Source: Cytophagaceae bacterium
Lineage (GTDB): Bacteria > Bacteroidota > Bacteroidia > Cytophagales > Spirosomataceae
Direction of reading: 5' to 3'
Assembly (NCBI GenBank): GCA_027486845.1
Contig: JAIXOL010000029.1
Location: forward strand, 1-64,000
Length of the DNA stretch: 64,000 nt
In this document: piece by piece, positions 27,413-54,143 of the stretch
How the letters are laid out: every line of letters starts with the position of its first letter
How positions within the stretch are numbered: the stretch's first letter is position 1
Program-made: the position numbers and the translations under genes
The notes under the pieces: generated by a model
Told to the model about the DNA's origin: nothing
Seen by the model: only the letters and a program-made list of their open reading frames with translations
Database searches by the model: none

Positions 27413-27490
27413 GTGAATAGATTTTTGTAATGCATTGTTTTTAAACGATTTAACCAAACCCATCTACTTTTGAGATGATTATACTGATTT

Positions 27491-28609
<1,119 letters not shown>

Positions 28610-29652: not shown

Positions 29653-29673
29653 TTTTTCAAGAAATATTTCCAT

Positions 29674-30546
29674 TTATTTTTTTGAATATTGTGTTAAGGC
29701 TTCGGCATACCGTTTGCCAAACTCACGCACACCTGCTGAGTCGAAATGTAAACCATCTTTGGCAGCAGAAAGACCAATGGACGAAACTACAATGGCTTTA
29801 GGAATTGATTGCGGAAGTGTTGCAATGATTATATTATGGCTGGCACATTTGCCTCCTTGCTCCACGGCCACCATTTCACCAGCTAACAGAGGAATAGAAT
29901 TTGGGGCAATACCTAAATCTGCTAAAATGTCATCATAAATTTTTTTTACTTGAGTTGGCCAAGTTTTATCGCCAGTATTCGACTCGCCTTGATGAAGCAA
30001 AATTCCTTTAATTACCCCTGATTTTTGGGCAATTTTTGCCATTTCAATTAATCTTTCATAAGGATTTCCGCCGTAAGAATTAGCCATGTTTATCATCCAA
30101 GGCCTTTCTTTGGCCGATGAATCAAGATAGGTTTTATATTTTACTTTATCAAAAATTTCAATTTTACTTCCTGCCACCGCTACATGAACCAAGCCGAGAG
30201 ATTGATTTTGAGGCATATTCTGAATCATAGTTCTACCAAAATAATCGGCTGGCGAAAGGCGAGTATCACAACGGCAGAGTGGCGGTTTAGCCGTGTACCA
30301 TTGTCCTTTTTTACGTTCCAGTTTTGGACAATCTAAGGCCTCCAAAATTTTGAAACGACTGTCAATATATGCAGTATCTTGAGCTTCTATACGAGCTGCA
30401 CCTTCCATATTTGACTGACCAATACAGAGATAAATATGAAAATTAGGGTCTTGGGCGAAAGAATTGCCTATCAACATAGATAAGCTAATTAAAAGTAGTA
30501 ATTTTTTCAAAGTTTTAGTTAGAGTTTTATTTTTCTGTAATTTCAT
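29674..30546 (-). CDS. SGNH-type carbohydrate acetylesterase (CE6/SASA-like)
   Basis: The open frame starts at 30600, but the ATG at 30546 is preferred because it opens a signal peptide (about 1-32, ending NSFAQ). It also reduces the overlap with the upstream GH43 gene to 20 bp. The 290-aa product has the block-I motif CIGQSNMEG with nucleophile Ser45, a LLHQGESN block, and a C-terminal DGLHFDSAGVREFG with the Asp-x-x-His dyad. These are the signatures of the SASA/DUF303 family, which includes CE6 acetylxylan esterases and sialate O-acetylesterases. The xylan setting favours CE6-like deacetylation. The 20-bp overlap implies translational coupling with the GH43 gene. Confidence 0.85.
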   Translation of the reverse strand: MKLQKNKTLTKTLKKLLLLISLSMLIGNSFAQDPNFHIYLCIGQSNMEGAARIEAQDTAYIDSRFKILEALDCPKLERKKGQWYTAKPPLCRCDTRLSPADYFGRTMIQNMPQNQSLGLVHVAVAGSKIEIFDKVKYKTYLDSSAKERPWMINMANSYGGNPYERLIEMAKIAQKSGVIKGILLHQGESNTGDKTWPTQVKKIYDDILADLGIAPNSIPLLAGEMVAVEQGGKCASHNIIIATLPQSIPKAIVVSSIGLSAAKDGLHFDSAGVREFGKRYAEALTQYSKK

Positions 30547-32098: not shown

Positions 32099-32174
32099 AT
32101 TTCGAAAAATCTTTTCAGATATGGTTTTTAATACCATTATTATTGTAAAAAACCCTTTAATCACAATTATCAAA

Positions 32175-33845: not shown

Positions 33846-33872
33846 TGTAATCTTTGTTTAATTCGTTAATTT

Positions 33873-36389: not shown

Positions 36390-36406
36390 TGTGTCAATAT
36401 AACACA
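36390..36406. promoter_or_regulatory. Predicted AraR operator of the hemicellulase operon
   Basis: TGTGTCAATATAACACA matches the 17-bp palindrome found before araB and araR. It overlaps the last two bases of the -7 element and covers the predicted transcription start, the classical position for a repressor site. Confidence 0.68.
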
Positions 36407-36435
36407 AATTTAATTTATTTTAAATTTAAGCCAAA
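36405..36435 (-). promoter_or_regulatory. Promoter of the GH95-to-GH51 operon
   Basis: On the minus strand TTTG (36432-36435), a 19-bp spacer and TAAATTTG (36405-36412) match the Bacteroidota housekeeping consensus TTTG-N19-TAnnTTTG exactly. The predicted start near 36399 leaves a leader of about 70 nt before the GH95 ATG. Confidence 0.7.
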
Positions 36436-36865
36436 TAAATTGGAAGAAAAAAAGATTTTATTTTGTATTTCTAATTTGAAAGTTCTGATTAAAAAATCTT
36501 AAGGTTTTTGTAAACTTAAAATGATATTTTAAGACACGAATTTTTGAAAAAATAATGAATTAAATAATGCTTTAAAAACTAGAACAGACCGCAAAAAGCT
36601 GCTTATGCTAAAGTCTATTTATTAATTATTAGAGATTTGGACTTTTTAGTAAATCTTAGGATTTTTGTCAATTTCTGTTTGAGAAATAGGGAATAATTGT
36701 AATTTATTTGCTTAGAAATGATATAATGGGTCAACTGATGGTTTTTTTTTTTGCTATCTTTGAACAAAGGTCTTTTTATGTATCTCTTTTAACAGTTATA
36801 CCAAAACTAAAGTCAGTAGTCAAACTATTGACACTTTCTACAATTCGTTAATAATAAATTAGTAC

Positions 36866-37179
36866 GTGTACATCCAAAAGAAAATTTTAATCTACAAATC
36901 AATGGTTTCCGAAACAAACGCAACCCAAAAAGACTTTTCGGCCATTTTATTCCAAGATTTATTTTCAGATGATAAGAAAATAGGGGTAATGAGAGAAGAA
37001 ATTTATGAATTATCCTCTTGTGTGGTAATTAACGATGGAAAAGGGGATTTTCACTAACAAAAATCCCTTGTCAAGCCCAATAATCACCTGTTTTTTCAAT
37101 TATTCTAGAAGATTTTAATGCTGATGGTTATGTAAATTTTTTATTACTAGAAAACTTTTTTTCGAATGAAGCTAATTAA
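36866..37179 (+). pseudogene. Remnant of an FG-GAP/VCBS-repeat surface protein
   Basis: Two consecutive frames carry recognisable C-terminal VCBS/FG-GAP repeat text. The first (to 37057) ends SSCVVINDGKGDFH. After a frameshift a second piece reads SPVFSIILEDFNADGYVNF followed by LLLENF, up to TAA at 37179, with an in-frame stop just before SPVF. In intact relatives these pieces are continuous (NDGKGNF ... EDFNGDGY.D.L). Only the extreme end of a much larger gene survives. No upstream part was found, so the gene was truncated before decaying. Confidence 0.6.
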
Positions 37180-37274
37180 GGTTGTGTAAGATATTATCAA
37201 GCTATTTTTGTAATTTATTATTTGTTATATAATTTATGTTATGTTAAATAACAAAAGCGTCATAGTTTATGTAT

Positions 37275-37451
37275 TTAACCTCTCTTACAAATCTGATATT
37301 TATTCCAATAAATTTCACTTATTTCGTAACTCATAAAAGAATTATCAGTCCTTATTTTTAAAGTTGATGATTTGTTTGAAAAATCAAGCACTATTCTCTC
37401 AATTGTATTTTCTGGAATGCCAAAGCTAATTTCAAATTCAAAAAAATCAGT
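37275..37451 (-). other. Unidentified 58-codon open frame, probable gene remnant
   Basis: A minus-strand frame bounded by stops reads naturally (FFEFEISFGIPENTIERI, then VLDFSNKSSTLKIRT). It has no start codon before Met40. It lies among pseudogenes and most likely is the tail of a lost gene. I do not recognise the family. From 37452 to about 38033 I see nothing coding. Confidence 0.25.
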
Positions 37452-38033
37452 TTAACAAAAAAAGCCTAAAATCGCCAAATTTGCTTTGAATCAACGACAA
37501 GTTTTTTTGAGTGGATAATCACCATTTCAAAATAAATGTTTATATAAAAAACTTTATACTGATGTTACAATACTAACTATACATTTTTAAAATAAATTCT
37601 GATTTTTTTAACAGTTTCACCCTTGAAAATTTGTGCCGTAATTTATATTGTCAAATACTCATTTTCAAGGGCTATCTATATATTTTAAAACCTTCCAACT
37701 AGAATCGGTTTTAAATCCCCCCTCTCCTACTTCGGTCAGTTTAATAGTATTTCCTTTCAATTATGTATAATATTTTACTTTTCCAAAAAAATGAAATCTA
37801 CCTTATATTGTATTCAAAGTCATTGTTATAAATGAATCAACTATGAACCTAAATTAGGATTTTCAACTATAATTTTTTCGTAATTTAGGATGAAAAAAAA
37901 TGGTTAAAAATTTGTGTTCATCAAATTCGTTCAAAACCTAAAACGGCTAAAACAGGTAAAAGCATATAAATATTCAAGTAAATTCATTTTTACTTTTTAG
38001 CGGCATTGCACAAATATTTACTTCAATAAAAAA

Positions 38034-39557
38034 ACGCTTACTTTATCAGCAACTTTGACCAACTTTGCTGGATCTGCACAATCAATAGAGATTATTTCTA
38101 TTGGAGGTGCCGACAATTTTTCAGCCATTTTGGATTTATAATCAACTACCAAAGGATTTTTGATACCTCGTACGACCAATGCTCAAATGAGGGCTATTCA
38201 AAACCAAGCACAAGAACTTCTTGCGTTTTGTACCGATTATGGTACAAGTAGCGATTATTATTTTTATAAAGGTTCGGCATAGGTGGCTCTAGGTTCCCTT
38301 ACTGTTTCGTTCTCCACTACTGTTGGACCTTTATGCTCAAGTACTTGTAAAAACGGTGCAACTTTTACCAATGGCGTGTTAAGTCTGGTACTGGCCAATG
38401 TGGATAATCCAGGAATAGTTACTAAAAATGCTCAAACAATTGTAGGTGTTAAAACATTTTCAGCTGCTCTTGTTCTATCAACTGCTACAGTCTCCTAGGC
38501 CTTACTTACAGATGCCAATAAAAATGTAGTTTCAAATGCTTTAACTGGAATTGGAAATGTAGTCATTAGTAATGCTTTCACTGGTACTGAAAATGGCTTT
38601 ACAAAATCATTGATAGCTTTAGCAAATATTGATAATACAACTGATTTAATAAAACCTCTTTCTACAGCAACACCAACGGTTTTAGCAAATAAAGTAGATA
38701 AAGTATCAGGATTAATTAACACTGCTGAAATAACAAAACTTGGTAACCAGTCGGGTACTACTACAGGTGACCAAACCTTGCCAACCCTGTCAAGCTTAGG
38801 AGCAGTTTCTTCTAATTTAGAAATAACTTGTGTAACGCATACTCAAATAACCCATGATGCCAAAGGTTTGGTAACAGGAGGTATAGCTGCAGCCACCAAG
38901 AAAATTATGTTTCAGATACTTAACTAGCGGAGTTAAATCAAATTAAGCAACTGCAAAGTTATTCAAATGTTACAGATGCCGATAGTAATAGTTATAAAAC
39001 AGTAAAAATTGGTAATCAGACATGGATGGCTGAATATTTGAAAATAACAAGATATAAACTTGGAAATACGAATATATCGCAAAATTTGCCTGCTAATTAC
39101 TTGATTTTTAACACAACCGGAGCTTGCCGCCTATTATATTGCAAATAATGCTGTTTATGGTTTTTTGCATAACCTTGCATCCAATGAATAACACCGATGG
39201 TCTTCGTCCCGAGGGTTGGTGTGTGCCTTCCAATGATGATTTGAATATATTAATATAGCCCTTGGGAATGTCATCCTTGTAGGCGGTAAGCCAAAATTTA
39301 TAGGGTTCGATGATTATACTATCACCAATTGAAAAGTAACAAATACAAGCGGCTTTTCGGCACTGCCGGGTGGTTACCCTATCAGAACATCAGGTGCGTA
39401 CGAATAAATTGGAGAAATTGCTTATTTATGGAGTGCTACTGGAAACTCTGGCACCACTGCCTAATTCCGTGGTTTGCAATACAACAGCAATAACATTTCT
39501 GTTGACAGTTCTGCTATTAAGTTCAATGGTTTTTCCGTTCGTTGCATCAAAAATTAA
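38034..39557 (+). pseudogene. Broken FISUMP-domain (Fib_succ_major) surface protein
   Basis: Reading through stops and frameshifts recovers a whole protein in order. An N-terminal tail-fibre-like module comes first (STTKGFLIPRTTNAQMRAI, then YFYKGSA-stop-VAL, where relatives have a tryptophan). Low-complexity coiled text with NTAEITKLGNQSGTTTGDQT and HDAKGLVTGG follows, and then the FISUMP domain: [54 protein letters not shown] and the terminal NGFSVRCIKN. At least four in-frame stops and several frameshifts are present. The first stops look like C-to-T or G-to-A transitions (CAA to TAA, TGG to TAG). Intact relatives are secreted or surface proteins of unknown role in Bacteroidota and Fibrobacteres. 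Confidence 0.75.
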
Positions 39558-39789
39558 ACCGTTTAATTCTTTTTTTCTAATAAAGACATTTAAACCTGCA
39601 AAGTGGTCGTTTTATAAAAGAAGTAAATAAGCAATATCGTTCCCTCTAGGTCCTCGGCAAATGACTCCGAAGGAATTGTAATATCAAACTTGACTCGTCC
39701 TAAATTAGTTTACAAGCATAAGTAAAAATCCTGATGTAGGTTTACAGTTGATTTATTATAATTATTCTTCAATTATCCTTTCAATTTTC

Positions 39790-40492
39790 CGCTAAGTAAA
39801 TGAGATTGATTGAGAGTTATAATAGCAATACTTATTTTTTAGAATTCCGTTTTCCTATACAGCAACGGTTCGTCGTTCGATTACATTTTCCAAAGATTCT
39901 ACATCTTGTGTCATCCTACTTTCTTTGAAAATTTTCCCTTATGCTTACATTCTCTTTGTAACAATATTCAATTCCATTGTCTGACTAATGAATTAGGTTT
40001 TATATAATTTTTGACAGAGCAGATTTATTATTGACATTTTAAAGGCTTCTGCCGAACTAATTGTCAAAAGATTATCCGCCACACGATAGCCAACATTTTT
40101 TTTTGAGTAAGTGTCAGTGATGAGTGTAATATACCCATTTCCGATTTTCGTTTCGAAATAGGTGATTTCAGTAATGGATATTTGATTAGGCTTTATTGCA
40201 TCTATTCTTTTAATTTTGTTAGTTATTTTCCTAGTCAATAAGTTGAATAAGTGGTTTGATCTTTTTTTATTATCGTAAGTATCTCATTCCTTGCCAAAAT
40301 TTTAAATTGTTTATCTTGCCTATTTTTATTTGATGTTTGACCATAAATATTTTAAGCATTCTGTATAGCTTCTGTGTTCCAATTAAATGTTATCTTTTTT
40401 GAATCGTTATTACCTCTTGTCTGAGCAATACTTCTTTGATATGATAGTCGTGTTCTCTCCATCAAAGTTGATGGTTTTACTTTATGCTTCAT
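39790..40492 (-). mobile_element. Decayed IS3-family transposase (orfB)
   Basis: Minus-strand translation gives pieces of an rve-type integrase: DKQFKILARNEILTIIKK, then IDAIKPNQISITEITYFET followed by GYITLITDTYSKKNVGYRV, and after another break MTQDVESLENVIERR and NGILKNKYC. The PNQ...DITY...Y..L.TD.YS pattern is that of IS3-family orfB, with the first catalytic Asp of DIT changed to Glu (EIT). Stops and frameshifts show it is inactive. Terminal repeats were not found. Confidence 0.7.
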
Positions 40493-41828
40493 GCCAAATC
40501 GTCCCAAATATACTACTATCTTGTGATTTCATTTCATATTTCTTAGCTATATAGCAGATTTTGTTTCATTGCTATTCAATTATTTTAACATACACGTCAC
40601 TTAAAATTTTAATCGTAATGTAACTTGTGTCGGAGGTATCATTACACCTTGGTTGTTTTGTTTCTTGCCACCTCTATCCATTGCCTTGTTTTAACCTATT
40701 TTAAGACAAGTCAAGCTACAATTCCTTTGAATTGTTCTACCAACCTATATATGATGTATTAATTTTTTAATACAATATTAGCCTCATCCCCTATCCAGTT
40801 TTTTTTAAATAATTTACTTTTAGAAACATTGTACTTAAAATTACACCTTCAATATTTTGGATTAATAATAAATTTATCTGTGCTTTTTTTATTCACAATA
40901 CAAATTTATTTTTTCGTTCAAATTTTAAATTACATTTCGTTTGATTTTTATCATCAAATTGGACAATAATTTGTATTCAACTTATGTATATATTTATTTT
41001 TGTCACCTTTATTAATAATTATGTTCGCTGCAAAGAATTAGTAGAAAAATTATAATCTCTTTGCTTTATATCAATGTTTTTTGATATTTTTTTACATTCC
41101 ACTAATAATTCTAACCTTTGTTTGAAAAATTAAAATTTTTAATCCCTTTATAAAAGAGAATAATATAACTTATTTTATGTTCTCTTTTTATGTCACTTGC
41201 TTGTAATTTGACATAAATTCGGTTTTCAAATTATTGGAAAATTGTTTTACAATGTTACTTTTTAGTTTAATCGCCTTTATTATTTTATCTTTTTGGTAGA
41301 ATTAATGTATTCTCCTACCCTTTTTAATTATAAAGGCTTGTTTTTTAAATTCATATATCAATTTTCCGTGTTTTATGTTAATTGAATTTATTATAACACA
41401 TTAAGAATTTTTGTGTTTATCATTAATTGTTTTTTTATCAATTGTTTTTGTTCCAGCAATTTTTATGTTTTTCTTCTTGTATATTTTTTTTGCAAAAAGT
41501 ATCAATTTGATGTTATGCTTTTTGTATTATCGTAATACTTTTTATTTTCGTGTAAGTTATTTTTATAGTTGAATTTTGATATATCTGGTACTTGAATTTG
41601 TAATATTTAATAGTTAAGAATGATTTGATTAGTAGATTGTAAAACTTTTCAATACTTGTTTATTGCTTATATCAATCTATATTTAAAAGTTGTTCATATT
41701 TTTAAATCATAATACTATGTCACTCTATTAATTTATAAACTAAAATAAATTCTTTATTAGTTTTGTTTTGGCACCTTTTAAATGTTTTCTGTCATAATCG
41801 TTAATTGCTTGTGCAATTAAATGTAAAT
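40493..41828. other. AT-rich stretch with no recognisable gene
   Basis: Very AT-rich DNA of about 1.3 kb. I see no frame with natural protein composition, no clear repeats and no RNA gene. It is probably decayed sequence or the 3' flank of the partition operon. Confidence 0.5.
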
Positions 41829-42611
41829 CTATATTCTGCGAATAATCCCCATTTTTTCTGCTTGCAATAATGTTATTTGGATACGATATTCTAGTCCAAT
41901 TTCTTCATTTGGGTTTTGTCTTATTTCTTTCCAGATTTCAACCAAATTATTTTTGATTAACCATCTTCCGTTTATTTCTACACTTATATCCTCTAATTTT
42001 GCTTTCGAAACTTTAGATCGTATTTTTTTAAGAATGTTTTCTTTTATTGATTCATCTGTTGTATCAACTGGTTTATGCACTTCTTTTATTATATTTGTGA
42101 GTAAGTTTGTATGTTCAGTTATCATTTTTGCTGTTATTGCTTTTCCTGTATTTAGGCTTTCTTCTACTATACTTCGCCAAACCTGAAAACGCAGCGTAAT
42201 TGGTATTTGGGCTAAAGCATTTGCATGAGATTCTTTCGAAGGTAATAAATTAGGTTTGTCGGAAATTTCCGACAAATTATTTTCCGACAATTGATGTACA
42301 ATTTCGGCAGCACCCATTAATTCATACGCCCGCTGTCTTTTTAATTGCCAACGGTCTTTACAATATGCTTCAAAAGTTGTAAAAGATTCACGGTATAATT
42401 TATTGTTTTTAATTTCAAAAAGTGCATTTCCAACTTCAATAAAGGTTTTTAATCCTTTTTCAATGATTTCTTCATAGGCATTTAAAGTTAATTTCTCATC
42501 GCTACTTAAAATTGAAATTTCGGTTGTTTCTTCATCAATTGAAATCAATTGATGAATTGGTTCAGCGTGTAAATCACGAAGTAAATCATTACTAAAATTC
42601 TTCTTTGCCAT
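41829..42611 (-). CDS. Partition-operon partner protein (ParB-position, DUF3102-like)
   Basis: A 260-aa cytoplasmic protein encoded 11 bp after parA on the same strand, the position normally held by parB. The central part (about 48-110) contains FIEVGNALFEIKNNKLYRESF, then TFEAYCKDRWQLKRQRAYEL, a helix-rich motif found in phage and plasmid proteins of the DUF3102-like group. No ParB/Srx or canonical HTH motif is obvious. The N-terminus (DLHAEPIHQLISIDE) recalls the short arginine/partner region that contacts ParA. A centromere-binding role is inferred from position. It could alternatively regulate the operon. Confidence 0.7.
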   Translation of the reverse strand: MAKKNFSNDLLRDLHAEPIHQLISIDEETTEISILSSDEKLTLNAYEEIIEKGLKTFIEVGNALFEIKNNKLYRESFTTFEAYCKDRWQLKRQRAYELMGAAEIVHQLSENNLSEISDKPNLLPSKESHANALAQIPITLRFQVWRSIVEESLNTGKAITAKMITEHTNLLTNIIKEVHKPVDTTDESIKENILKKIRSKVSKAKLEDISVEINGRWLIKNNLVEIWKEIRQNPNEEIGLEYRIQITLLQAEKMGIIRRI

Positions 42612-42622: not shown

Positions 42623-43369
42623 TTAAATATTTGTTTGTTCCAAAATTTCAATACATAGACTTTCAAAATCCTTGGCTCCTCTTGACTCTGGAGCATACTC
42701 AAAAATACTTTGAGCAAACGCTGTACATTCCATCAATGAAACATCTTGACGGATTTGTGTTTTATACAATTTAACATTCGGATTTGAAAGAAGTTTACTA
42801 TATACCATTTGTCCAAATTTTGTTCGAATGTCAAATTTGTTAAGTAATATTCCTCCTAAATCTAACTTTGGATTCATACGCTTTTTTATCTTTAAACTCA
42901 ATTGTAATATTTCGTCTAAACCTACATAAGCAAAGTTTTCACCTTGCATTGGTACAACAAAGATATCACTAGATACGAGTGCATTAACTGTAAGCGAACC
43001 TAAACTAGGTGGACAATCAATTAATACAAAATCGTAATTCTTTCCTTCTAATTGTTCATGCAAAAAATAGCCACTATCGGGTTCTGAATTTATTCTATAT
43101 TCATAACTCAATAAGGTTCTGCTAGCAGGAATAATGTCAAAATTTCGTGTCTTGATTACTACACTTTCAAAATCGGTTTCACCAACTAGCAGCTCGCCAA
43201 TATGTCTTCCAGATATATTGGCACCAGCAGCAACACTCAAATTACATTGAGCATCTAAATCAATTAAAAGCACCTTCTTCCCAACAGAGCTTAATGCTGC
43301 ACTCAAATTTAATGTTGTTGTGGTTTTGCCTGTACCACCTTTATTGTTTGTAATTGATATAACTTTCAT
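42623..43369 (-). CDS. parA: ParA-type partition ATPase
   Basis: A 248-aa MinD/ParA-family ATPase. The deviant Walker A motif NNKGGTGKTTTT (signature Lys10, Lys15) opens the protein. The family's DLDAQCNLS follows, then FVLIDCPPSLGSLTVNALV (Walker B) and GILLNKFD. There is no N-terminal DNA-binding extension, so it is a short ParA of the type Ib/Soj style. It would drive segregation of a low-copy replicon together with the protein encoded 11 bp downstream. A short imperfect palindrome (CCCAAAAAT...ATTTTTAGG) just upstream may be an operator or centromere element. With the nearby Rep gene and iterons it marks a plasmid backbone. Confidence 0.92.
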   Translation of the reverse strand: MKVISITNNKGGTGKTTTTLNLSAALSSVGKKVLLIDLDAQCNLSVAAGANISGRHIGELLVGETDFESVVIKTRNFDIIPASRTLLSYEYRINSEPDSGYFLHEQLEGKNYDFVLIDCPPSLGSLTVNALVSSDIFVVPMQGENFAYVGLDEILQLSLKIKKRMNPKLDLGGILLNKFDIRTKFGQMVYSKLLSNPNVKLYKTQIRQDVSLMECTAFAQSIFEYAPESRGAKDFESLCIEILEQTNI

Positions 43370-45026
43370 TTGATATTATTAAGCAGGTTTATATTTCCCA
43401 AAAATAACATTTTTAGGAGAAATAAAACATTTTAATTAGGTAAAAATGATTATATAATGGATAGTTATAAGTTTTTTAATATTTAAAATATTATTGAATT
43501 ACACTTTTTCAAAATATCGCTTAAATTTGCACCATAACCAATGATAGAAACTGTTATTATAAAAAATTAATTGCTTATAAACTAAGTAACAGTCCATTTA
43601 TTTTCAATTATGATAAAACCCATTTTTGAAATAAAAAGAGATGAAAAAACAGTAATCCTAAAAATATATTATATCAAAAATGAAAATTACGGAGTTACAA
43701 GTTGGAATGTTTATAACATTTAATTTGCCATTTCTTATAAAAAAAGACGACAATAAGACTTACTTACAAATTTAGTAATGTGAGAATGTCGATGGAATTT
43801 TAATAGGATTTTATCAAACAACACTTAGACTACAACATCTAAAAATATACAGATAATGAAATAGTTAAAGTTATTCGAAAATCTCACTACCAGATATCCA
43901 AGTAAAATAAAAAATAAAGGAAGTAAGTTGATAACAGTTTCATAGAACAATAGAGATTGTAAGGACTAAAATAGGACTGACAATTAAACATAAGATTACG
44001 AAATTATCTACAGATTAATGAAACTAACAGAAATGAATTCTTGAGAATTAAAAACATTGGTAGCAAAAGATTTAAAGGATTAATCGATATTGGTCAGATA
44101 ATGCAAGAAACTGTGGTATTGATTTATATCATAAGCGAACCTTGGTTTCTAAATTACAAAGCGAACCGATTGATTTTGTTTAAGCGATTTGCCCATTAAT
44201 TATCTATAATTCATTAAGCTTTTTAATGCTTATTGTAAATCATTAATATAGGGTGAGAGAAAGTGAAATTACAAAGTAAAATACGAATTTGGAGAAGATA
44301 TCCACAAATATACACTAGGATATCAAAAAAAGAATAAGCCTTACAAAAAGGTAATGAAAAAGCAAAAGATAAAAATGAAGCAGCTTTTATGAAATTTGAT
44401 AAATTACAGATGTAAGTACATATTCTTTTTTTTGAATTAGGTGTTGCATACGATAAATTGTAATAATTGAATCAGCTATTGATAAATCTATTGAATGCTA
44501 GGCATAATGTATATTTTGAGATTTTGATAAGTGTTTTTATTTAACTTGTTAGTTCGAATTATTGATTCAATTGATTTTGGGATTTTCATTTGGGCAGGTT
44601 TTATAAAAAATATTTTTGAATGGGTAGGTATATTTTGAATGATAAATTATTGCCAATTGCAGCAGGAATTTACACAACTGTTAAATCTAAATACATCGAG
44701 GTATTTAGATTTAGGGTATAAATCGTTCAACTACCCAAACAGCTTTAACATTATTTGCCTTTTGTACATTGATGGAAATTAATTTAAAACATAAAAAAAT
44801 ACTTGAACCTACTTTAAAAAGTACAGAGAATAGAAAGTGGTAAGAATATGTCTCAAATTAGAATGAAAAATCAAAAAGTGAAAACAAAATAAGTATATGT
44901 TAATGTTTTTTCAATATTAATTATGTTTCTCAAAAATCAGAAATTATTAATCAAATATTATTCATAAATATATATTTTGTATTTTTATATTATTCAATTA
45001 TATTTATGTGTGTTTATTTGTAGTTA
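43370..45026. other. AT-rich intergenic region upstream of the replication module
   Basis: About 1.7 kb between parA and the iteron region with no supported gene. A 37-codon frame at 43610-43723 and scattered short frames look like old debris. The only clear structure is the hairpin at 44682-44713. The region may contain the centromere, but no repeated site was identified. Confidence 0.5.
44682..44713. repeat. Perfect 13-bp inverted repeat in the plasmid-like region
   Basis: TAAATCTAAATAC and its exact complement GTATTTAGATTTA flank a 6-nt loop (ATCGAG). No gene ends nearby, so it is not an obvious terminator; it could be a protein-binding or replication-related structure. Confidence 0.6.
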
Positions 45027-45042
45027 GGTAACAGTTTGTAAG
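45027..45042 (+). repeat. Outlying iteron copy
   Basis: GGTAACAGTTTGTAAG differs by one base from the iteron of the main array 331 bp downstream and has the same orientation. Confidence 0.6.
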
Positions 45043-45372
45043 AGATTTAATAATAAATAGTAAAAGATTTCTGTAATGTTTATCCAGAGAGGATATTTAC
45101 CCAATCTTAAGCGTTTAAATTCGAGATTAATATAATTACCGCCACCCCAAACCTTCTTTTGTTTTATTTTTTCTTGATTTTCTTTCTTTTTTTCATTTGA
45201 TTCAAGAGTTTTTCGTTGGAATGAAAAGTTTATTAACATATAAACACTAATAGATTATTAAATCAAAATTATATTTTAATTGTAATATCAGATTTAAAAG
45301 ATTTATAGATACTTTGTAGATAATTGTCCATGTTCATAACTAATTGACAGGTAGATGCTTATGTGGTAATAA

Positions 45373-45542
45373 GGTAACAGATTGTAAGAAATATGGGGTA
45401 AAAAAGTAACAGATTGTAAGAATAAGGTAACAGATTGTAAGAATAAGGTAACAGATTGTAAAATTTACAGTAACAGATTGTAAGGAATAAGGTAACAGAT
45501 TGTAAGGAAATTAAACAAGTAGAAACCTTACAATATGTTACC
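45373..45542 (+). repeat. Iteron array of a plasmid replication origin
   Basis: Six direct copies of a 16-bp unit (GGTAACAGATTGTAAG, with end variants) start at 45373, 45405, 45426, 45447, 45469 and 45491. Spacing is 32, 21, 21, 22 and 22 bp, about two helical turns, so the bound proteins lie on one face. An inverted copy (CTTACAATATGTTACC, 45527-45542) stands just before the rep gene and probably acts as the autoregulatory operator. Direct iterons plus an inverted operator copy are the classical layout of Rep_3-type theta origins. Confidence 0.88.
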
Positions 45543-45599
45543 TTATTGATAAAAAATATTATATTTGTGGATAACTCAGTTGTAAACGACTTAGAAAAT

Positions 45600-46706
45600 A
45601 TGAAAAAAAAGCAAGAACCAACTTTTGAATCTCCACAAGAAGTTGTACTTGTCGATAAGGGCCTTTCGAGCAAAGAAACAGATGTTGCAAGAGTTGTTAA
45701 TCATATTGACCAGATAAGAAAGTATTTTGACTTGCATCAAGAAAAAATACATTTATTGTTTGTTGCTCAATTAAAATCGCTACAAGGAGAAAATTATGAT
45801 TCGGCCAATTTGAATCCTGATAATCTTTACAAATTAAGTTTCCACTTGGGAGATAATCTACAAGTTGACAGAGAGCGTATTAGAAAAGCTTTAGATGATA
45901 TTACGAAGGTTCGATATCAGATTGAAGGTGTAAATCGTTTTGGGTATATTGTGCCATTCCCTTATGCCATGTTTGAAAACAATACCATCACCCTCAAAAT
46001 TCAGGGTTTGGTGTTAAAACAATATTTAGATATTTCGAAAGGATACACCAATATTTTGATTGGGGAGGCTTTGAAGTTAGAAAGTGAATATTCTATTAAA
46101 CTTTTTACTAATCTTAATGCTTGGTTGAATTTAGGAGAAAAAGTATATGAAATTTCGTACCTAAGGCAGTTATTGGGTATGAATGAGCCTTTGTTTGAAA
46201 ATTATAAATTTGTGAATTTATATCTAAAAAGGTGTAAGAAAGAAATAGAAAAGAAAACAAGTCTAAGATTTGATTGGGAAATAAGCCATTATATAAGAGG
46301 GAAGAGGAAACCAATTGCAGAAAAAGTTAAATTTTCAATCACAACCGAAAATAGGCTAAAGAGACAATTAGAAATAAACTTTGAACAAGAAGCAAAGAAA
46401 ACAATCAGAGATGAAAAGAAATTACACACTGACGATACGATAAGCTATTACCTCAATGCCGAGTCAGTTGAAGAAAAGTGGCGTTTGCTTAATAATGCAA
46501 TCTCTAATTATGGATTTAAGCAAGATGAAAAAGACTATATTCTAACGAATGCTTTAAATCAAGAATTTATTTATAAATTCATGGAAGTCCATATTTATTT
46601 ACAATATGAAGGAATGCTTGCCTTAAAAGAACAACGTAAACCAACAATTGCCAATTTTACTGCTTATTTTCGTAAATCTATGAAAAACAGCGGATTTTGG
46701 CTTTAA
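45600..46706 (+). CDS. Plasmid replication initiator protein, Rep_3/RepB family
   Basis: An initiator of 368 aa from the chosen start. The frame is open from 45546, but the ATG at 45600 is preferred because a TATATTTG -7-like element at 45560-45567 would put the transcript start beyond the earlier ATG. The N-terminal winged-helix domain (about 20-150) contains KETDVARVVNHIDQIRKYFD and PFPYAMFENNTITLKI. A second winged helix includes YSIKLFTNLNAWLNLGEKVYEISYLRQLLGM and YLKRCKKEIEKKTSLRFDWE. Tandem winged helices are typical of the family, which binds iterons to open the origin. It lies 57 bp after the inverted iteron copy. A C-terminal extension of about 110 residues exceeds the minimal family length. 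Confidence 0.9.
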   Translation: MKKKQEPTFESPQEVVLVDKGLSSKETDVARVVNHIDQIRKYFDLHQEKIHLLFVAQLKSLQGENYDSANLNPDNLYKLSFHLGDNLQVDRERIRKALDDITKVRYQIEGVNRFGYIVPFPYAMFENNTITLKIQGLVLKQYLDISKGYTNILIGEALKLESEYSIKLFTNLNAWLNLGEKVYEISYLRQLLGMNEPLFENYKFVNLYLKRCKKEIEKKTSLRFDWEISHYIRGKRKPIAEKVKFSITTENRLKRQLEINFEQEAKKTIRDEKKLHTDDTISYYLNAESVEEKWRLLNNAISNYGFKQDEKDYILTNALNQEFIYKFMEVHIYLQYEGMLALKEQRKPTIANFTAYFRKSMKNSGFWL

Positions 46707-46789: not shown

Positions 46790-48910
46790 TCAAATTTTGG
46801 AGAGGTGTTTCTTATTCGTTTGTAAATCTTCATTCCAATTCTTGGTTATCGGTTTTTTGACTAGAAAATATTGTTTACCCTCACTAGCGATTTCTGAACG
46901 AATTTTCAATAAAATATCTAAGGCTTTTGTTAAATGACGACGGCTATTGCGTAAAGCAATTATGAAAGATGCATTTTCTTGATTAGAAACCCTTTCAATC
47001 ACCTTTACAATATCTTTGTCCAAAAAAGCACCGACATTTTTAATAATTTTATCAACTAAAGACTCAATTTTTTCATTTGCTGATTCTTTACTTTTCGGAA
47101 ACACAAGCTTTAAATGAGATTCAGTTTTTTTGAAGGCATTGGTTTCTTCTGTATTTTGGTTATTATTGACATTATCAATTCTGAATTTTATGTCATTTTC
47201 TGTTTTTAATAATGGGTGTTGTAAACCTCCAGCTAAGGTTGTGTTGAAATGTAAACCAGGGTTTGTGTTGTCCATCGCTAAAATGACCTCTGAATTATGT
47301 TTTTGAAGTACTTTATTGATAAACTCAATCTGTTTAGAAGATGGAGGTCCACCTGTTGAAATAAACAGATTATATTCGTGAGGCATGGGTATAAGTTGAG
47401 CAAAAGATAAGGCATCAATCGGACTTTCAGTAATAATCATTCTTTGGGCTTTTGCTTTGGAAAAATCAATATCATTATCTACTAAAGCCCTTATAATTGT
47501 AGTTGGCTGTAGGTTAAATTTTTGAATTAAGTTTTCTGATAAATATTGGGGATTATATGAAAACTGAAATTTTGTTATGTTATCTTTTTCTACTTTATGT
47601 AGTGCTCCCAAGGTGCCTGCTGCAATGGTTAAAGGGTGACCATTTAGTGTAGCATTGATATTTTTATCGGCTTTTAAAAGTTCATTTGACATCCAAACAC
47701 CATCAAATTTTGATCCGGAAAGATATATTTTTCCTGATTGTTTATCGACGTTTGAGACAAATTGGATGATAAAACTTGTTAAGCCAAATTCATTTCGCAT
47801 TGGAAAAGCTGTGTTATAAAAAGTCATACCCTGCGTTTCTTTCGACTCATAAGGTATATTATTAATTTGACCTAAAAACTCAGGTGCATAAATTATATTT
47901 TCGCTTAAACCACACTCTTTTAAGTAACTCGGTCGAGTATAAGCTAAAATTCGATTTTCTTCTCTAATGGCTTTTTCACGAAGTTTAGTTTGTTGTTCCA
48001 AATCTAATGGAATTAGTTTTTCAAACTCAGAGTCTTGGTATTTCCCCTTGGCATGATCTTTATTTATATTTGCAAAATTAGGTCTTACCGAAACCGCGTC
48101 AATTGTTGCAAGAATATCTGGCCAATAACAATCATACTCATTGAGTAGTAAATCGAGCAAAGTGCCTTTGTTTTCGGCATTATTTACATCGAAATAGCCT
48201 TTTAAAGCGTTATTCATAAAAACAACTATCTTGCTATCATTCGATTTTCTTGACCAAAGGTGTTGTGTTTTACCCCATTTTTTTATCTGTGGCTCATATC
48301 CTATATTTTCTAAAACAGCTTCTAAATCAACATTCTCTAAAATATAATTAAAGTCTTTTTTTGGAAAAACTTTCTTTAAAGATTTCTTAATATTCAAGAT
48401 TTTGCCATGCTCTCGCTCAAGGTTAATTAAAAACTTTTCTTTGTGAAAATTTTGTGATGCTTTGAGAGATTTATAAGTATTTTCAACGCTCAAAATTTTG
48501 GTATTTACGACACCAGCTTTACGTAATTCAGCATCAGATAATGCCTTATCGAAATCATCCTTTTGGAAATCAGGAATTGATAAAAAAACTTTAACCAAGC
48601 GGTTTTTCGTGAAACCGATACTTATGAATGGGCGATTAGGGTCGTCGAAATTTTGAAAATCAGCAACATTTTTTTTGAATGCTAATCGATTGGAATTATC
48701 CAAACCGAGACTTATGGCCTTTTTTATGGCTTCAAAGTTTTCGGGTGTTGATTTTACCCAAACCGAAATATCAGAATAGGGCAGGGTAGGGGAATAAGAA
48801 TTGGCAGCATAACTATCGAAGCCAATATATTTAACCTTCATTTTATTGAAAGCACCTAAAATATGTTGTTGCTCGGTAGTCGAAAAGTCAGATACTATTT
48901 TTGTGCCCAT
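46790..48910 (-). CDS. Toprim-domain protein of plasmid type, primase-related
   Basis: A 706-aa cytoplasmic protein. The C-terminal half contains a Toprim-like core: IITESPIDALSFAQL supplies the conserved glutamate, and VILAMDNTNPGLHFN corresponds to the DxD strand. The usual second Asp is Asn here (DNTNPG). A preceding GTLLDLLLN..CYWPDILATI block resembles the region next to DUF3991/Toprim in mobilisable-element proteins. The N-terminal 150 residues (FDSYAANSYSPTLPYSDISVW) are not recognised. Proteins of this kind occur beside Rep and Par genes on Bacteroidota plasmids and are thought to act in priming or mobilisation. It follows a 70-aa gene by 18 bp on the same strand. Confidence 0.72.
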   Translation of the reverse strand: MGTKIVSDFSTTEQQHILGAFNKMKVKYIGFDSYAANSYSPTLPYSDISVWVKSTPENFEAIKKAISLGLDNSNRLAFKKNVADFQNFDDPNRPFISIGFTKNRLVKVFLSIPDFQKDDFDKALSDAELRKAGVVNTKILSVENTYKSLKASQNFHKEKFLINLEREHGKILNIKKSLKKVFPKKDFNYILENVDLEAVLENIGYEPQIKKWGKTQHLWSRKSNDSKIVVFMNNALKGYFDVNNAENKGTLLDLLLNEYDCYWPDILATIDAVSVRPNFANINKDHAKGKYQDSEFEKLIPLDLEQQTKLREKAIREENRILAYTRPSYLKECGLSENIIYAPEFLGQINNIPYESKETQGMTFYNTAFPMRNEFGLTSFIIQFVSNVDKQSGKIYLSGSKFDGVWMSNELLKADKNINATLNGHPLTIAAGTLGALHKVEKDNITKFQFSYNPQYLSENLIQKFNLQPTTIIRALVDNDIDFSKAKAQRMIITESPIDALSFAQLIPMPHEYNLFISTGGPPSSKQIEFINKVLQKHNSEVILAMDNTNPGLHFNTTLAGGLQHPLLKTENDIKFRIDNVNNNQNTEETNAFKKTESHLKLVFPKSKESANEKIESLVDKIIKNVGAFLDKDIVKVIERVSNQENASFIIALRNSRRHLTKALDILLKIRSEIASEGKQYFLVKKPITKNWNEDLQTNKKHLSKI

Positions 48911-49409: not shown

Positions 49410-49796
49410 CTATTCGCTAAAATCAGGTATAAAAATATCTTCTTGTTTGGTTTCTTGATTTGAAGCAATTAATTCTGCTTTTGCTTTTAAAATTTTAAAA
49501 ACTTCAGGTGTAAAGATTTCACTAACAGGTACATTGTATTGGAAACAAACATCTAAAATTTGAACTAATGTTGCTAAGGTACCTCCTCCGTTGGCGAGAT
49601 GGCGGTAGATTAAATAATTAACTCCGAGAAATTCAGCACGTTTTTTTTCAAAATGTGCAATTTGCCTTGGGCTGATTGGATTACATTTTTCAGCATTTTC
49701 GATAATTTTTGTATCGATTTCTTTATGTAGTAGAGAAACAAATGCTTTATAAAATAACTCTTCTTTTTCTGAAACATCTTTTTTCTTTCTAGGCAT
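49410..49796 (-). CDS. Small plasmid-type protein, possible degenerate XRE-like DNA-binding protein
   Basis: A 128-aa protein starting with a basic patch (MPRKKKD). The central part (about 43-105, ISPRQIAHFEKKRAEFLGVNY, then ATLVQILDVCFQYNVPVSEIF) has the helix pattern of an XRE/Cro fold with the usual late VPVSEIF helix, but the recognition helix does not match well. It stands alone, 268 bp upstream of the 70-aa gene on the same strand. A regulatory role for the plasmid genes is a weak inference. Confidence 0.55.
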   Translation of the reverse strand: MPRKKKDVSEKEELFYKAFVSLLHKEIDTKIIENAEKCNPISPRQIAHFEKKRAEFLGVNYLIYRHLANGGGTLATLVQILDVCFQYNVPVSEIFTPEVFKILKAKAELIASNQETKQEDIFIPDFSE

Positions 49797-49808: not shown

Positions 49809-50042
49809 TTAGGAGTTTTTAAACATAATTAAATGTGGAATTGTTTCTTTGATTTGAATCATTTATTCTTATGTAAGCAAATCTCTATCTTCAATAATAT
49901 AAACGTAATTTTTTTGAATTACACATTTTTTTATTACCCATTTGGTGTGATTTTTAGCAAATTCTTCGCTTACAAATGTAGTGAAATCTTGGATAATTGG
50001 CAATTCTTGTAATGGATATTGAAGGCTATCAATTGTGTTCAA
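49809..50042 (-). pseudogene. Possible decayed small gene
   Basis: A minus-strand frame of 77 codons from a TTG at 50042 reads naturally at first (TIDSLQYPLQELPIIQDF, then TTFVSEEFAKNHTKWVIKKC). It then loses protein-like composition. Shifting frame by one base after the AAAAAAA run would give VIQKNYVYIIEDRDLL, so a single-base deletion in a homopolymer is plausible. No family is recognised and no ATG start exists. Confidence 0.25.
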
Positions 50043-50341
50043 ATGAAAAAGACAAATATTAACAGATTTGGACGAAAAACTTCGTTTTTAATTTAAAATT
50101 TTACGAAAAAACAATGACGAATTTTGTAGGTTTGTGTAATTTAACCAAAAATTCTAGTTTAAATAACCTTCACGTTAAAAATGAAAAAATCCTTTACTTT
50201 TTTAATTAACGATGACAATCCGATTGCTTGCAAATTTTAGAAAGCCTTTTATACACTTGAATAAAAGAATTATGATAAAACGGGTTTAAAAATATTTGAA
50301 TTCTTGGGAACGGAGATTAAAATAACAATAAAATAAACGGT

Positions 50342-51652
50342 ATGTTGAAGTTTTTGAACAAAAAATATCAAAAATATTTAAATATTGATCAACCCAAGTA
50401 TGAAGGTTTAATCGTTGCCCGTCAAATATGGATGGTTAAAGCTGCATTTTGGGCAGGAGGAGGTGTTCATTTAGTTTATGTCATATTTAATCTTTTAACT
50501 GACACTCCTAGAATAACACATAATCTATTTTCAATACTAATTAGTTGCGTTCCGTCTTATTATTTTCTAAAAAAGGGCAAACTGGAACATGCCTTTTTTT
50601 TTGCTTATTATCCAATTATTTTTATTCAAACCTTTGGAACTTATCAAGAAGTAAGCACAAACTTAAATGGTGAACTTGCTTTGATAGCTTATGCCACAAT
50701 TCCTGTTATTTGCTATAAATTACCCTACAATATAATCGGTATTATCATAAATTACATCTTATTCGTTTTTGTAAAAATTGCAAAATATCCTTTTCATTCA
50801 ATCACGCCTAACGAATTTATCAACGAGCTATTAATGGTGACCTGTATTTATGTAGCCATATTTTTAGCTGCTTATTTTTTTGAAATAGATTATAGAGTAC
50901 TGAAAGAAAATTTTAAAGAGTTGAACCTACGGAAACAAATCATTGAATCACAAGCGGAAGAACTGAAAATTGTAAATTCAACCAAAAATCGGCTTTTTAG
51001 TATCATTTCACATGACCTTCGTAGCCCATTAGCATCACTGAAAAATGTTATTCAATTAGCTGAGGAAGAACATATCAGTGTGCAAGAATTCAAAGAATTA
51101 TCCAATCATATCAAACAGAATGTTGATAATTTGAGTGGGATGCTGGAAAATTTATTGTTTTGGTCTCTTTCTCAGTTGGAAGAAATAAAACCAAATCTCC
51201 GCCCCTTTGATTTAGATTTAATTGTTGATGAAACATTATCCATTTTTAAAGAAAATGCTCTCCAAAAACAGATAGATTTAACTAAGCCTTCAGCGACAAA
51301 CTTGCAAGCTTATGGAGATGAATATCAAATCAGGACTATCATAATAAATTTAGTAAATAATGCACTAAAATTTACGCCACGACATGGAAAAATAATAATT
51401 GATAGTAATATCGAAGGACAATTTATCACACTAAAAATCATGGATTCAGGGATAGGTATGGAAAAAGATGAATTAATGCAAATTTTCAATAATCCAATCA
51501 TAAAAAGCGGTACGGCAGGTGAAACAGGCACTGGATTTGGTTTATTTTTATGTAAAGAATTAATTGAAAAAAATGGCGGAAAGATTGAAATTGAAAGTAT
51601 TATTGGCAAAGGAACAACTATTAATCTTTTTTTACCCCTAATGGTTAACTAA
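50342..51652 (+). CDS. Membrane sensor histidine kinase, copy 1
   Basis: A 436-aa sensor kinase. About six hydrophobic segments fill residues 28-182 (WMVKAAFWAGGGVHLVYVIF, HAFFFAYYPIIFIQTF, ELLMVTCIYVAIFLAAYFF and others), with almost no periplasmic domain. A short coiled linker leads to HisKA with the phosphoacceptor His224 (FSIISHDLRSPLASL). The HATPase domain has the N box IINLVNNALKFTP, the G1 box DSGIGMEKDE and the G2 box GTGFGLFLCKELIEKNGG, so it should be active. No response-regulator gene lies nearby. It is the first of two tandem copies. The signal is unknown; a membrane-embedded cue is suggested by the lack of an external domain. Confidence 0.88.
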   Translation: MLKFLNKKYQKYLNIDQPKYEGLIVARQIWMVKAAFWAGGGVHLVYVIFNLLTDTPRITHNLFSILISCVPSYYFLKKGKLEHAFFFAYYPIIFIQTFGTYQEVSTNLNGELALIAYATIPVICYKLPYNIIGIIINYILFVFVKIAKYPFHSITPNEFINELLMVTCIYVAIFLAAYFFEIDYRVLKENFKELNLRKQIIESQAEELKIVNSTKNRLFSIISHDLRSPLASLKNVIQLAEEEHISVQEFKELSNHIKQNVDNLSGMLENLLFWSLSQLEEIKPNLRPFDLDLIVDETLSIFKENALQKQIDLTKPSATNLQAYGDEYQIRTIIINLVNNALKFTPRHGKIIIDSNIEGQFITLKIMDSGIGMEKDELMQIFNNPIIKSGTAGETGTGFGLFLCKELIEKNGGKIEIESIIGKGTTINLFLPLMVN

Positions 51653-51752
51653 CATTCTTTAAATCCTCACATAATACACAAACCCAAGTTGTAAAAATGT
51701 TCGAATTCTTAGGTACAGAAATTAAAATAGCATTAACAATAAAAAAAACAGT

Positions 51753-53054
51753 ATGTTGAAGTTTTTGAACAAAGAGAATTTGAATATTGATCAACCCGAA
51801 TACAAAGGTTCAATTGTGGCCCGTCAAATATGGACGGTAAAAGCTGCATTTTGGATGGGAGGAAGTACGCAATTATTTTATGTCTTTAAACATCTTTTGG
51901 CTGACACTCCTAGAATACCGTACGGTATTTTTGCCATAATATTTGGTTTCCTTCCTTCTTATTATTTTCTAAAAAAGGGCAAATTGGAACATGCCTTTTT
52001 TTTTGCTTATTATCCGGCAATTTTTTCACAAACGCTTGGGACTTATCAAGTAGCAAACACAAACTTAAATGGAGAACTTGCCTTGATAGCTTATGCTACA
52101 ATTCCTGTTGTCTGCTATAAATTACCCTACAAAATAATTGGTATTTTTATAAATTACATCTTATTCGTTTTTGTAAAAATTGCAAAATATCCTCTTCATT
52201 CATTCACTCCTAATGAGTTTATCAACGAGCTATTAATGGTAACCTGCATTTATGTAGCCATTTTTTTAGCCGCTTATTTTTTTGAAATAGATTATAGAGT
52301 ACTGAAAGAAAATTTTAAAGAGTTGAACCTACGAAAACAAATCATTGAGTCACAAGCGGAGGAACTAAAAACCATAAATTCCACCAAAAATCGACTTTTT
52401 AGTATCATTTCCCATGACCTTCGTAGTCCCCTAGCATCGCTAAAAAGCGTTATACAATTAGTTGAAAATGAACATATTAGTGTGCAAGAATTCAAAGAAT
52501 TATCCAATCATATCAAACAGAATGTTGATAATTTGAGTGGGATGCTGGAAAATTTATTGTTTTGGTGTCTTTCTCAGTTGGAAGAAATAAAACCAAATCT
52601 CCGCCCCTTTGATCTAGATTTAATTGTTGATGAAACATTATCCATTTTTAAAGAAAATGCTCTCCAAAAACAAATAGATTTAACTAAGCCTTCAACGAAA
52701 AACTTGCAAGCTTATGGAGATGAATATCAAATCAGGACTATCATAATAAATTTAGTAAATAATGCACTAAAATTTACGCCACGACATGGAAAAATAATAA
52801 TTGATAGCAATATCGAAGGACAATTTATCAAACTAAAAATCATGGATTCAGGGATAGGAATGGAAAAAGGTGAATTAGTACAAATTTTCAATAATCCAAT
52901 CATAAAAAGCGGTACGGCTGGTGAAAAAGGCACTGGATTTGGTTTATTTTTATGTAAAGAATTAATTGAAAAAAATGGCGGAAACATTCAAATTGAAAGT
53001 GTCATTGGCAAAGGAACAACTATTAATCTTTTATTACCCCTAATGGTTAACTAA
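51753..53054 (+). CDS. Membrane sensor histidine kinase, copy 2
   Basis: A 433-aa paralogue of the kinase 100 bp upstream, three residues shorter because of a small deletion near residue 8. It keeps the six membrane segments, the phosphoacceptor His221 in FSIISHDLRSPLASL and complete N and G boxes (GTGFGLFLCKELIEKNGG). Most substitutions lie in the first 170 residues, e.g. IPYGIFAIIFGFLPSYYFL against THNLFSILISCVPSYYFL in copy 1. This suggests divergence of the sensing part with conservation of the kinase core. No partner regulator is adjacent, so both kinases may feed a regulator encoded elsewhere. Confidence 0.88.
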   Translation: MLKFLNKENLNIDQPEYKGSIVARQIWTVKAAFWMGGSTQLFYVFKHLLADTPRIPYGIFAIIFGFLPSYYFLKKGKLEHAFFFAYYPAIFSQTLGTYQVANTNLNGELALIAYATIPVVCYKLPYKIIGIFINYILFVFVKIAKYPLHSFTPNEFINELLMVTCIYVAIFLAAYFFEIDYRVLKENFKELNLRKQIIESQAEELKTINSTKNRLFSIISHDLRSPLASLKSVIQLVENEHISVQEFKELSNHIKQNVDNLSGMLENLLFWCLSQLEEIKPNLRPFDLDLIVDETLSIFKENALQKQIDLTKPSTKNLQAYGDEYQIRTIIINLVNNALKFTPRHGKIIIDSNIEGQFIKLKIMDSGIGMEKGELVQIFNNPIIKSGTAGEKGTGFGLFLCKELIEKNGGNIQIESVIGKGTTINLLLPLMVN

Positions 53055-53378
53055 TATTCTTTAAGTCCTGAAATAATGCACAAAACCTGTATTATATGGG
53101 ATTTATATTTTAACTGTTCAACTATTCGAGATTCTCTTCGGAACATATATGAGAAAAGTATAACAAATTTAGTCGTAGTTGGCGTTCGTTACTGGTACTT
53201 TTTTAATTTTGGTAAATTTTAAAACTAGGATTTTAAAAGAAAGATATTATTTACCTTCAGTCCAAAATAAATTAATTTTATATTAATAAATAAATGTAGA
53301 GTTAAGATGAGATTAATTGTTGCACTAGAGATTACAGAATAAAAAGGATTAAGACGGATAAGATTTTGCTCAATATGC

Positions 53379-53459: not shown

Positions 53460-54143
53460 ATGAGGTACATTGCCTATTATAGAGTTAGTACAAAAAAGCA
53501 AGGAGTCAGCGGCTTAGGTTTAGATGCTCAAAAGCAAACAGCGAATAATTTTTTGAAAGAGGGGGATTTGATAATCAAAGAATTTTTGGAAATCGAATCT
53601 GGAAAAAACAATCAGCGTCAGCAATTGGACGAAGCAATAAAATTTGCAAGAAATAATAAACACACTTTGTTGGTTGCCAAACTCGACAGGCTGAGTAGAA
53701 ATGTTTCATTTATATTTACACTTCGTGATAGTGGTGTTGATTTTGTTTGTGCTGACATTCCGGATGCAAACACACTAACGATTGGAATATTTGCTACCAT
53801 TGCTCAGCATGAACGAGAAATCATAAGTCGAAGAACAAAAGATGCACTAAAAGCCAAGAAACAAAAAGGTTTTAAACTCGGTTCACCTCAAAATTTAACC
53901 GATTTATCGAGGGTTCAAGCCATCAAATCTATTAAAGGGAATGCCATGAATAATGATCAATGGAAGACCGCATTACTACATATTAGACTACAAATATTTG
54001 AATTGAAAAATAGGGGAGAAAAGGTAACATATTTGGGTTTAAGTCGTCATTTGAATGAAAACTGCATAGAAACTCGTAATTTTTGTCGTTTTCATGCTGA
54101 GCAAATTAAAAGAGTTATGTTAAGAAATAATATCAGTAAATAG
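53460..54143 (+). CDS. Serine recombinase (resolvase/invertase family)
   Basis: A 227-aa small serine recombinase. The catalytic domain (about 1-135) has YYRVSTKKQG with nucleophile Ser10, GLGLDAQ, VAKLDRLSRNV with the conserved arginines, and FATIAQHEREIISRRTKDAL leading into the E helix. The C-terminal 90 residues replace the classical short HTH with a segment containing WKTALLHIRLQIFELKNRGE, then YLGLSRHLNENCIETRN, which resembles a recombinase-like DNA-binding region. It could resolve plasmid multimers or move DNA segments. An inverted repeat sits just upstream. It closes the plasmid-like block. Confidence 0.88.
   Translation: MRYIAYYRVSTKKQGVSGLGLDAQKQTANNFLKEGDLIIKEFLEIESGKNNQRQQLDEAIKFARNNKHTLLVAKLDRLSRNVSFIFTLRDSGVDFVCADIPDANTLTIGIFATIAQHEREIISRRTKDALKAKKQKGFKLGSPQNLTDLSRVQAIKSIKGNAMNNDQWKTALLHIRLQIFELKNRGEKVTYLGLSRHLNENCIETRNFCRFHAEQIKRVMLRNNISK

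Follow-up and report, generated by a model that had tools for sequence, protein, structure and literature searches.

The window analysed here is the whole stretch of 64,000 bases of DNA, which is bases 1-64000 of contig C30 (181,394 bases) from a genome of 5.36 Mb in 82 contigs. Direct copies of the iteron GTAACAGATTGTAAG are located upstream of a rep gene on the forward strand, including iteron 1 (45374-45388), iteron 2 (45406-45420), iteron 3 (45427-45441), iteron 4 (45448-45462, one mismatch), iteron 5 (45470-45484), and iteron 6 (45492-45506). Their start-to-start spacings are 32, 21, 21, 22 and 22 bp, and therefore five of the six copies follow each other at 21-22 bp, in four intervals. 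Iteron 1 stands 32 bp upstream of the rest of the array, which is about three helical turns. An outlier copy (GTAACAGTTTGTAAG, one mismatch) was found on the forward strand at 45028-45042; it ends 331 bp before the first array copy (346 bp from start to start), and has counterparts in the two close relatives described below. An inverted copy with one mismatch lies on the reverse strand at 45527-45541, 35 bp from the last direct iteron, and ends 58 bases ahead of the rep start codon (taken as ATG 45600). It is a candidate operator of rep. The recount agrees with a preliminary description of this DNA, which had reported six direct 16-bp iterons, four at 21-22 bp spacing, an inverted copy ahead of rep (here 45541-45527), and an outlier 331 bp upstream.

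The number of these copies was compared with chance expectation. With up to three mismatches, the iteron matched the window ten times, and eight of the matches were at this locus; 100 shuffles of the window gave a mean of 2.31 matches and a maximum of 5. In the whole 5.36-Mb genome, nine matches with at most one mismatch were found, eight of them at the origin locus, whereas the control pattern (the iteron read backwards) matched once. The chain of copies at 21/22 bp comprises five copies, and the longest chain in 200 resampled sequences comprised two. The locus has the helically phased direct iterons beside rep that characterize a Rep_3 iteron plasmid (21, 21, 22 and 22 bp, plus 32 bp), and also an inverted iteron-related copy before rep, which is kept in both close relatives and may serve as the operator.

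An AT-rich block (45241-45329) adjoins the array on its upstream side and is a candidate unwinding element; the A+T content of 45241-45366 is 77.8%. This block had not been included in the preliminary description. A -7-like box (TATATTTG) at 45560-45567 on the forward strand is a candidate rep promoter, and is identical in both close relatives at the same place. The box fits TAnnTTTG, the consensus of the -7 promoter element of the Bacteroidota. Its position would put the -33 region of the rep promoter within or beside the inverted copy, where no good -33 element was recognized by eye. A scan for sigma-70-type promoters was uninformative (8 sites, with 6.0 expected). The -7-like box is overlapped by the sequence TTATCCACA (45566-45574, reverse strand), which is one of 12 matches to TTATNCACA on the contig and resembles a DnaA box. 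It is retained in one relative (L015) and one base off in the other (pEMTOL01), and is therefore a candidate only.

The rep gene (45600-46706, forward strand) is intact and encodes a replication initiator of 368 aa of the Rep_3 (PF01051)/RepE family. ATG 45600 is preferred to TTG 45546 as the most likely start, because the homology and the annotation of pEMTOL01 both begin there. The protein matched PF01051 with 35.3-38.6 bits (cut-off 22.4). A search of the PDB with the single Rep sequence gave no match, whereas a profile of 12 Rep relatives matched RepE (1REP, E 1.3e-27), the pi protein (2NRA, 2.7e-16) and 1HKQ (2.6e-5). The match to 1REP covers positions 1-234 of the 330 profile positions; 1HKQ is entered in the PDB as a replication protein. 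Judged by these matches, Rep is a family member with a predicted Rep_3 winged-helix domain. A structure prediction of Rep made without an alignment was discarded (mean pLDDT 34.8).

A Rep relative at E 1e-5 is encoded by 4 of 72,556 plasmid records, and the close one is pEMTOL01 (NC_018742.1, 190 kb) of Emticicia oligotrophica DSM 17448. In a scan of 84,980 genomes, which was pattern-based and could detect no more than close relatives, a single locus was confirmed, in Emticicia sp. EMPMRC01 (L015, JAFEIL010000560.1). Rep matches at E 0.001 or better occurred in 16 of 57 other genomes (10 from the genus, 25 from the family, and 22 from the order); one of them was at high identity, in genome G007, which is judged to be E. 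oligotrophica DSM 17448 itself. In a scan of viral contigs with the Rep alignment, 70 stretches fitted a pattern and none was confirmed. The L015 locus is similar to C30 in its origin and rep (99% aa identity), with 93.5% nucleotide identity across 5.3 kb; unlike C30, it is just a 5.3-kb MAG contig without visible surroundings. Plasmid pEMTOL01 shares with C30 the outlier, the array of six iterons (one of them decayed), the inverted copy and the -7-like box, and its proteins are collinear with those of C30 (aa identity 87.5% for Rep, 87% for ParA, 71% for the Toprim protein, and 88.5% for the resolvase).

The comparison with these two relatives showed which parts of the origin are conserved. 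The spacings in C30 and L015 are 32, 21, 21, 22 and 22 bp, then 35 bp to the inverted copy; in pEMTOL01 they are 32, 21, 43 (with one decayed copy in between) and 22 bp, and again 35 bp to the inverted copy. The distance from the outlier to iteron 1 varies, being 346 bp in C30, and 355 and 317 bp in the other two origins. The iteron bases of all eight copies are identical to pEMTOL01 at 111 of 120 positions, including 14 of 15 in the outlier, and the AT-rich block at 78 of 89 aligned bases. The spacers inside the array are identical at 35 of 62 positions, and the region following the outlier (45043-45240) at just 84 of 168, with 30 gaps. Thus, the iterons and the AT-rich block are the conserved parts of the origin. 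Between the rep genes of C30 and L015, there are 27 synonymous differences and 3 nonsynonymous ones (dN/dS 0.024); the dN/dS against pEMTOL01 is 0.023, with the synonymous sites near saturation. These ratios (about 0.02) mark a gene under strong purifying selection, and selection has therefore acted on rep until recently. Disruption of rep in relatives, which had been considered earlier as evidence against a plasmid-borne or plasmid-integrated locus, was not observed; its reading frame is open in both close relatives.

Phased arrays also occur upstream of related rep genes. A chain was defined as at least three 15-mers at 21/22 bp with up to three mismatches, and each region was compared with 60 resampled versions of itself. 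Such chains were present in 18 of 22 rep upstream regions but in none of the 1320 resampled ones; when C30, L015 and pEMTOL01 were left out, the proportion was 15 of 19. Loci were given for 19 of the 26 Rep matches outside the source genome. The 22 regions comprise 17 of these 19 located genome matches (two were dropped, as their upstream region was cut off), together with pEMTOL02 (two regions), pRUNSL01, L015 and C30. The arrays of L028, L029 and L031 have one common repeat and are not independent. Inverted copies were less regular than phased arrays across these genes. By this comparison, phased arrays are the usual look of such origins in the family, and the origin on C30 is an ordinary one.

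These results indicate that the locus is very probably the theta-replication origin of a Rep_3/RepE iteron plasmid, with a backbone in common with pEMTOL01. It adds a well-conserved member to the pEMTOL01 type of replicon, whose iteron, inverted copy and conserved distal copy can now be defined. No study of origins in Emticicia was listed in the part of the open-access literature that was searched. The iteron origin of a plasmid-type replicon proposed in the preliminary description is hence upheld, as a conserved origin of a known kind. Iteron-like arrays also act as centromeres or operators in other plasmids, and the repeats might in principle be another regulatory or partition array rather than an origin. 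This reading is very improbable, since the array stands directly upstream of a Rep_3 gene, in 21/22-bp phase and with an inverted copy, and since such arrays recur upstream of related rep genes.

The way such an origin would work can be proposed by analogy with known systems. According to two articles on iteron plasmids, replication is initiated by Rep monomers on direct iterons, repA is repressed by dimers of RepA bound to an inverted repeat, and origins are coupled through Rep on the iterons, by handcuffing (PMC4980987, PMC4857107). One of these articles also states that cooperativity is lost when the iterons are moved apart by half a helical turn (PMC4980987), which fits the 21/22/32-bp phase of the iterons on C30. 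If the origin is currently active, Rep monomers would bind the six phased direct iterons cooperatively, as in F and pPS10. Rep and the host DnaA might then unwind the adjoining AT-rich block (candidate 45241-45329), which would allow the helicase to be loaded. Autorepression of rep would follow from the binding of Rep, probably in dimeric form, to the inverted copy, which would cover the -33 promoter region of rep. For the outlier, a conserved copy 331 bp ahead of the array, titration or looping (handcuffing) are candidate roles. F (RepE/ori2) and pPS10 (RepA/oriV) are similar to C30 in having a Rep_3 initiator and direct iterons for Rep monomers, and pPS10 also in an inverted-repeat operator ahead of rep. 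The operator of F and pPS10 is a short half-iteron, whereas the inverted copy on C30 is a full-length iteron arm. C30 also differs from both in its conserved distant seventh copy and in its iteron sequence. The full-length inverted copy, the lack of a good -33 element, the base that is off in the DnaA-box-like site of pEMTOL01, and the varying distance of the outlier count against the proposed origin and mechanism.

The GC skew was also considered. The cumulative GC-skew minimum of C30 is at 43,304, near the iterons, and the gene direction switches there too. After correction for gene direction, the sign change was not significant over the whole of C30 (reached by 466 of 5000 shuffles and 9 of 103 rolls). 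When the test was confined to 45 kb on each side, none of 46 rolls and 460 of 5000 shuffles reached it; the same test on pEMTOL01 gave 54 of 5000 shuffles and 2 of 138 rolls. GC skew as proof of origin activity was dropped, because the gene direction changes at the same place.

The genes around the origin have counterparts on pEMTOL01. These include a ParA-type partition ATPase (42623-43369, reverse strand, 87% identity) and the gene downstream of it (41829-42611, reverse strand, 75%), which holds the ParB position by place only and whose product gave no family match. ParA and this presumed partner would segregate the element. On the other side of the origin are a Toprim-domain protein of 706 aa (46790-48910, reverse strand, 71%), a 128-aa protein without assigned function (49410-49796, reverse strand, 86%), and a serine resolvase (53460-54143, forward strand, 88.5%). 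The order ParA, neighbour, origin, Rep, Toprim, 128-aa gene and resolvase is that of pEMTOL01, so that rep, par, Toprim and resolvase are both homologous and collinear with this plasmid. The earlier suggestion that ParA and a Toprim protein mark a plasmid-type replicon is therefore supported by an architecture that matches a complete plasmid. Two tandem histidine kinase genes (window 50287-53087), 89.5% identical to each other over 1.4 kb, lie between backbone genes shared with pEMTOL01. On pEMTOL01 (NC_018742.1) and pEMTOL02 (NC_018749.1), kwaAB anti-phage genes are annotated beside similarly annotated transporter genes.

Unlike C30, pEMTOL01 has annotated genes from traG to traO between parA and rep, and it is typed as conjugative; the cargo also differs. 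No match to its tra and relaxase genes was found among the 113 ORFs of C30 (at least 80 aa), of which 9 matched anything on pEMTOL01. Two remnants were found within 36-56 kb of C30. One of them (44029-44703, forward strand) is a broken copy of a pEMTOL01 gene annotated as 'transposase', which on that plasmid occupies the second place behind traG, ahead of traK; the stretch 43991-44710 contains 20, 30 and 13 stop codons in its three forward frames. The other (49827-50033, reverse strand) is a remnant of a YWFCY-domain protein of pEMTOL01, with 69 aa and 57% identity. Without the conjugation genes between parA and rep, the element has probably lost the ability to transfer itself, and from its gene content it looks like a transfer-deficient derivative of a pEMTOL01-type plasmid. 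Coding density is low in window 36400-41800 (0.33 in the 5-kb bin from 35001 and 0.31 in that from 40001), where broken reading frames were noticed by eye, e.g. at about 38000-39600.

An arabinose/arabinoxylan catabolic locus (19811-36329, reverse strand) is located in the same window, with araA, a sugar kinase, an arabinofuranosidase, two GH43 genes, esterases and GH95. It shares 79-80% nucleotide identity with pEMTOL02 (NC_018749.1) of E. oligotrophica, a plasmid of 100 kb that has a ParA and two rep genes of its own. Plasmid pEMTOL02 is similar to C30 in its arabinoxylan locus and in a rep gene with its own phased array; however, its iteron is different, and no backbone protein of C30 matched there at E 1e-20. 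A partial match was found on pRUNSL01 of Runella (47 of its 107 kb compared). The 16.5-kb segment was matched in all ten congeners, with short matches only in G001. The G003 copy occupies 545-571 kb of a single contig of 5.18 Mb, and the 440 kb around it contain six tRNA genes. The G004 copy is on a contig of 691 kb; the 440 kb around it contain two tRNA genes, and the start of this contig is syntenic with the tRNA-bearing contig C69 of the source genome. The surroundings in G003 and G004 are thus apparently chromosomal. On the basis of these comparisons, the hemicellulose locus is a separate cargo with its own history, which moves independently of the replicon. The preliminary description had implied a plasmid-borne or plasmid-integrated hemicellulose locus, which is supported in part; the locus does share a contig with a plasmid-type origin, but it is not tied to this replicon, as seen from pEMTOL02 and G003. 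One arabinoxylan locus is hence found in three settings within a genus (apparently chromosomal, on pEMTOL02, and on a contig with a pEMTOL01-type origin), which makes the mobility of such loci testable.

Whether the replicon is integrated or free is about even. The backbone may be integrated, in which case the contig would be a chromosomal island and the origin a recent, intact passenger that is dormant or tolerated; this has an even chance. Nearly as likely is a free replicon, either a non-conjugative plasmid of 181 kb or more, or a larger secondary replicon to which C53, C67 and C16 also belong. The 181-kb contig gave no tRNA, rRNA or other Rfam match, as would suit a plasmid, though just about 1.2 tRNA genes would be expected on it (35 are listed in 5.36 Mb). 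The rep gene, the ParA gene and the iterons are intact and under selection, and a strongly constrained rep fits less well with an integrated copy. Moreover, both parts are plasmid-borne in E. oligotrophica, the backbone on a plasmid of 190 kb and the hemicellulose locus on one of 100 kb. On the other hand, the circularity check gave no exact end-to-end overlap of C30, and the tra genes are missing, which would be in line with integration. Synteny with ten congeners was examined for C30 104-124 kb, C30 19.8-36.3 kb, C67 20-38 kb and a control. C30 104-124 kb has an accessory gene content, with just single-gene matches (E 0.001), and C67 20-38 kb has little besides one 4-kb match of 95% identity in G006 (E 1e-60). 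In contrast, kilobases of the chromosomal control (20 kb of the tRNA-bearing contig C25) were matched in all ten congeners at E 1e-60, nearly completely and collinearly in G004, G007 and G008. These differences count against a chromosomal island. C30 144-164 kb and C67 1-20 kb matched no plasmid record ('near' mode), which is a slight point against a plasmid.

The contig ends favour integration to some extent. The last 93 bases of C30 recur at the start of C53 and again at its end, and also, in reversed orientation, at the end of C67. End overlaps of 119 bases join C30 with C53, and C53 with C67. Among the contigs compared, the right end of C30 overlaps only C53 and C67, via a repeat of about 145 bp that is common to the right end of C30, both ends of C53 and an end of C67, so either path leads from C30 to C67. 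C30 and C53 are 93% identical over their final 300 bases, which points to related loci in tandem. C67 and C16 both begin in arrays of one CRISPR-like repeat. They share 23 identical bases within a spacer, and the 66-bp period of the array is preserved when they are joined there. The path thereby reaches housekeeping-type genes on C16, including acs (TIGR02188, above the cut-off), a carbonate-dehydratase-like gene (243 bits, cut-off 251), a transporter of the sulfate-permease family, and a PG_1098/THUMP-type methyltransferase. Relatives of the methyltransferase occur on just 5 of 72,556 plasmid records, none of them from Emticicia, and no plasmid record has an Acs of more than 80% identity. However, 3133 plasmid records carry Acs relatives (the best 65% identical, in Persicobacter and Aureibacter), and one methyltransferase relative is on a 602-kb plasmid record of Bernardetia, so such genes can be plasmid-borne. 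C16 also gave no tRNA or rRNA match. The linkage to C16 therefore speaks for integration without proving it. None of the C16 genes was found near the hemicellulose locus of G003 or G004 at E 1e-15, and at 1e-5 just two common families gave weak matches; C30 could not be placed by comparing the starts of other contigs with these neighbourhoods for synteny. The more specific arrangement, with a complete origin and an intact initiator, selected until recently, sitting in the chromosome near a transferable hemicellulose locus, is possible but rather doubtful. If it were true, there would be a second replication origin in the chromosome, possibly active or conditionally active, and a trait that is plasmid-borne in a relative would have become fixed by the integration.

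The array on C16 (L081:1-3700) and C67 (L065:1-200) was named CRISPR-like by eye; it has 55 exact repeat cores on C16 and three repeats on C67, and many copies of the same repeat are present on C19. At the left end of C30, 119 bp are common to the start of the tRNA-bearing contig C75, with no continuation among the contigs compared. By eye, these bases (window 1-119) resemble the end of an insertion sequence.
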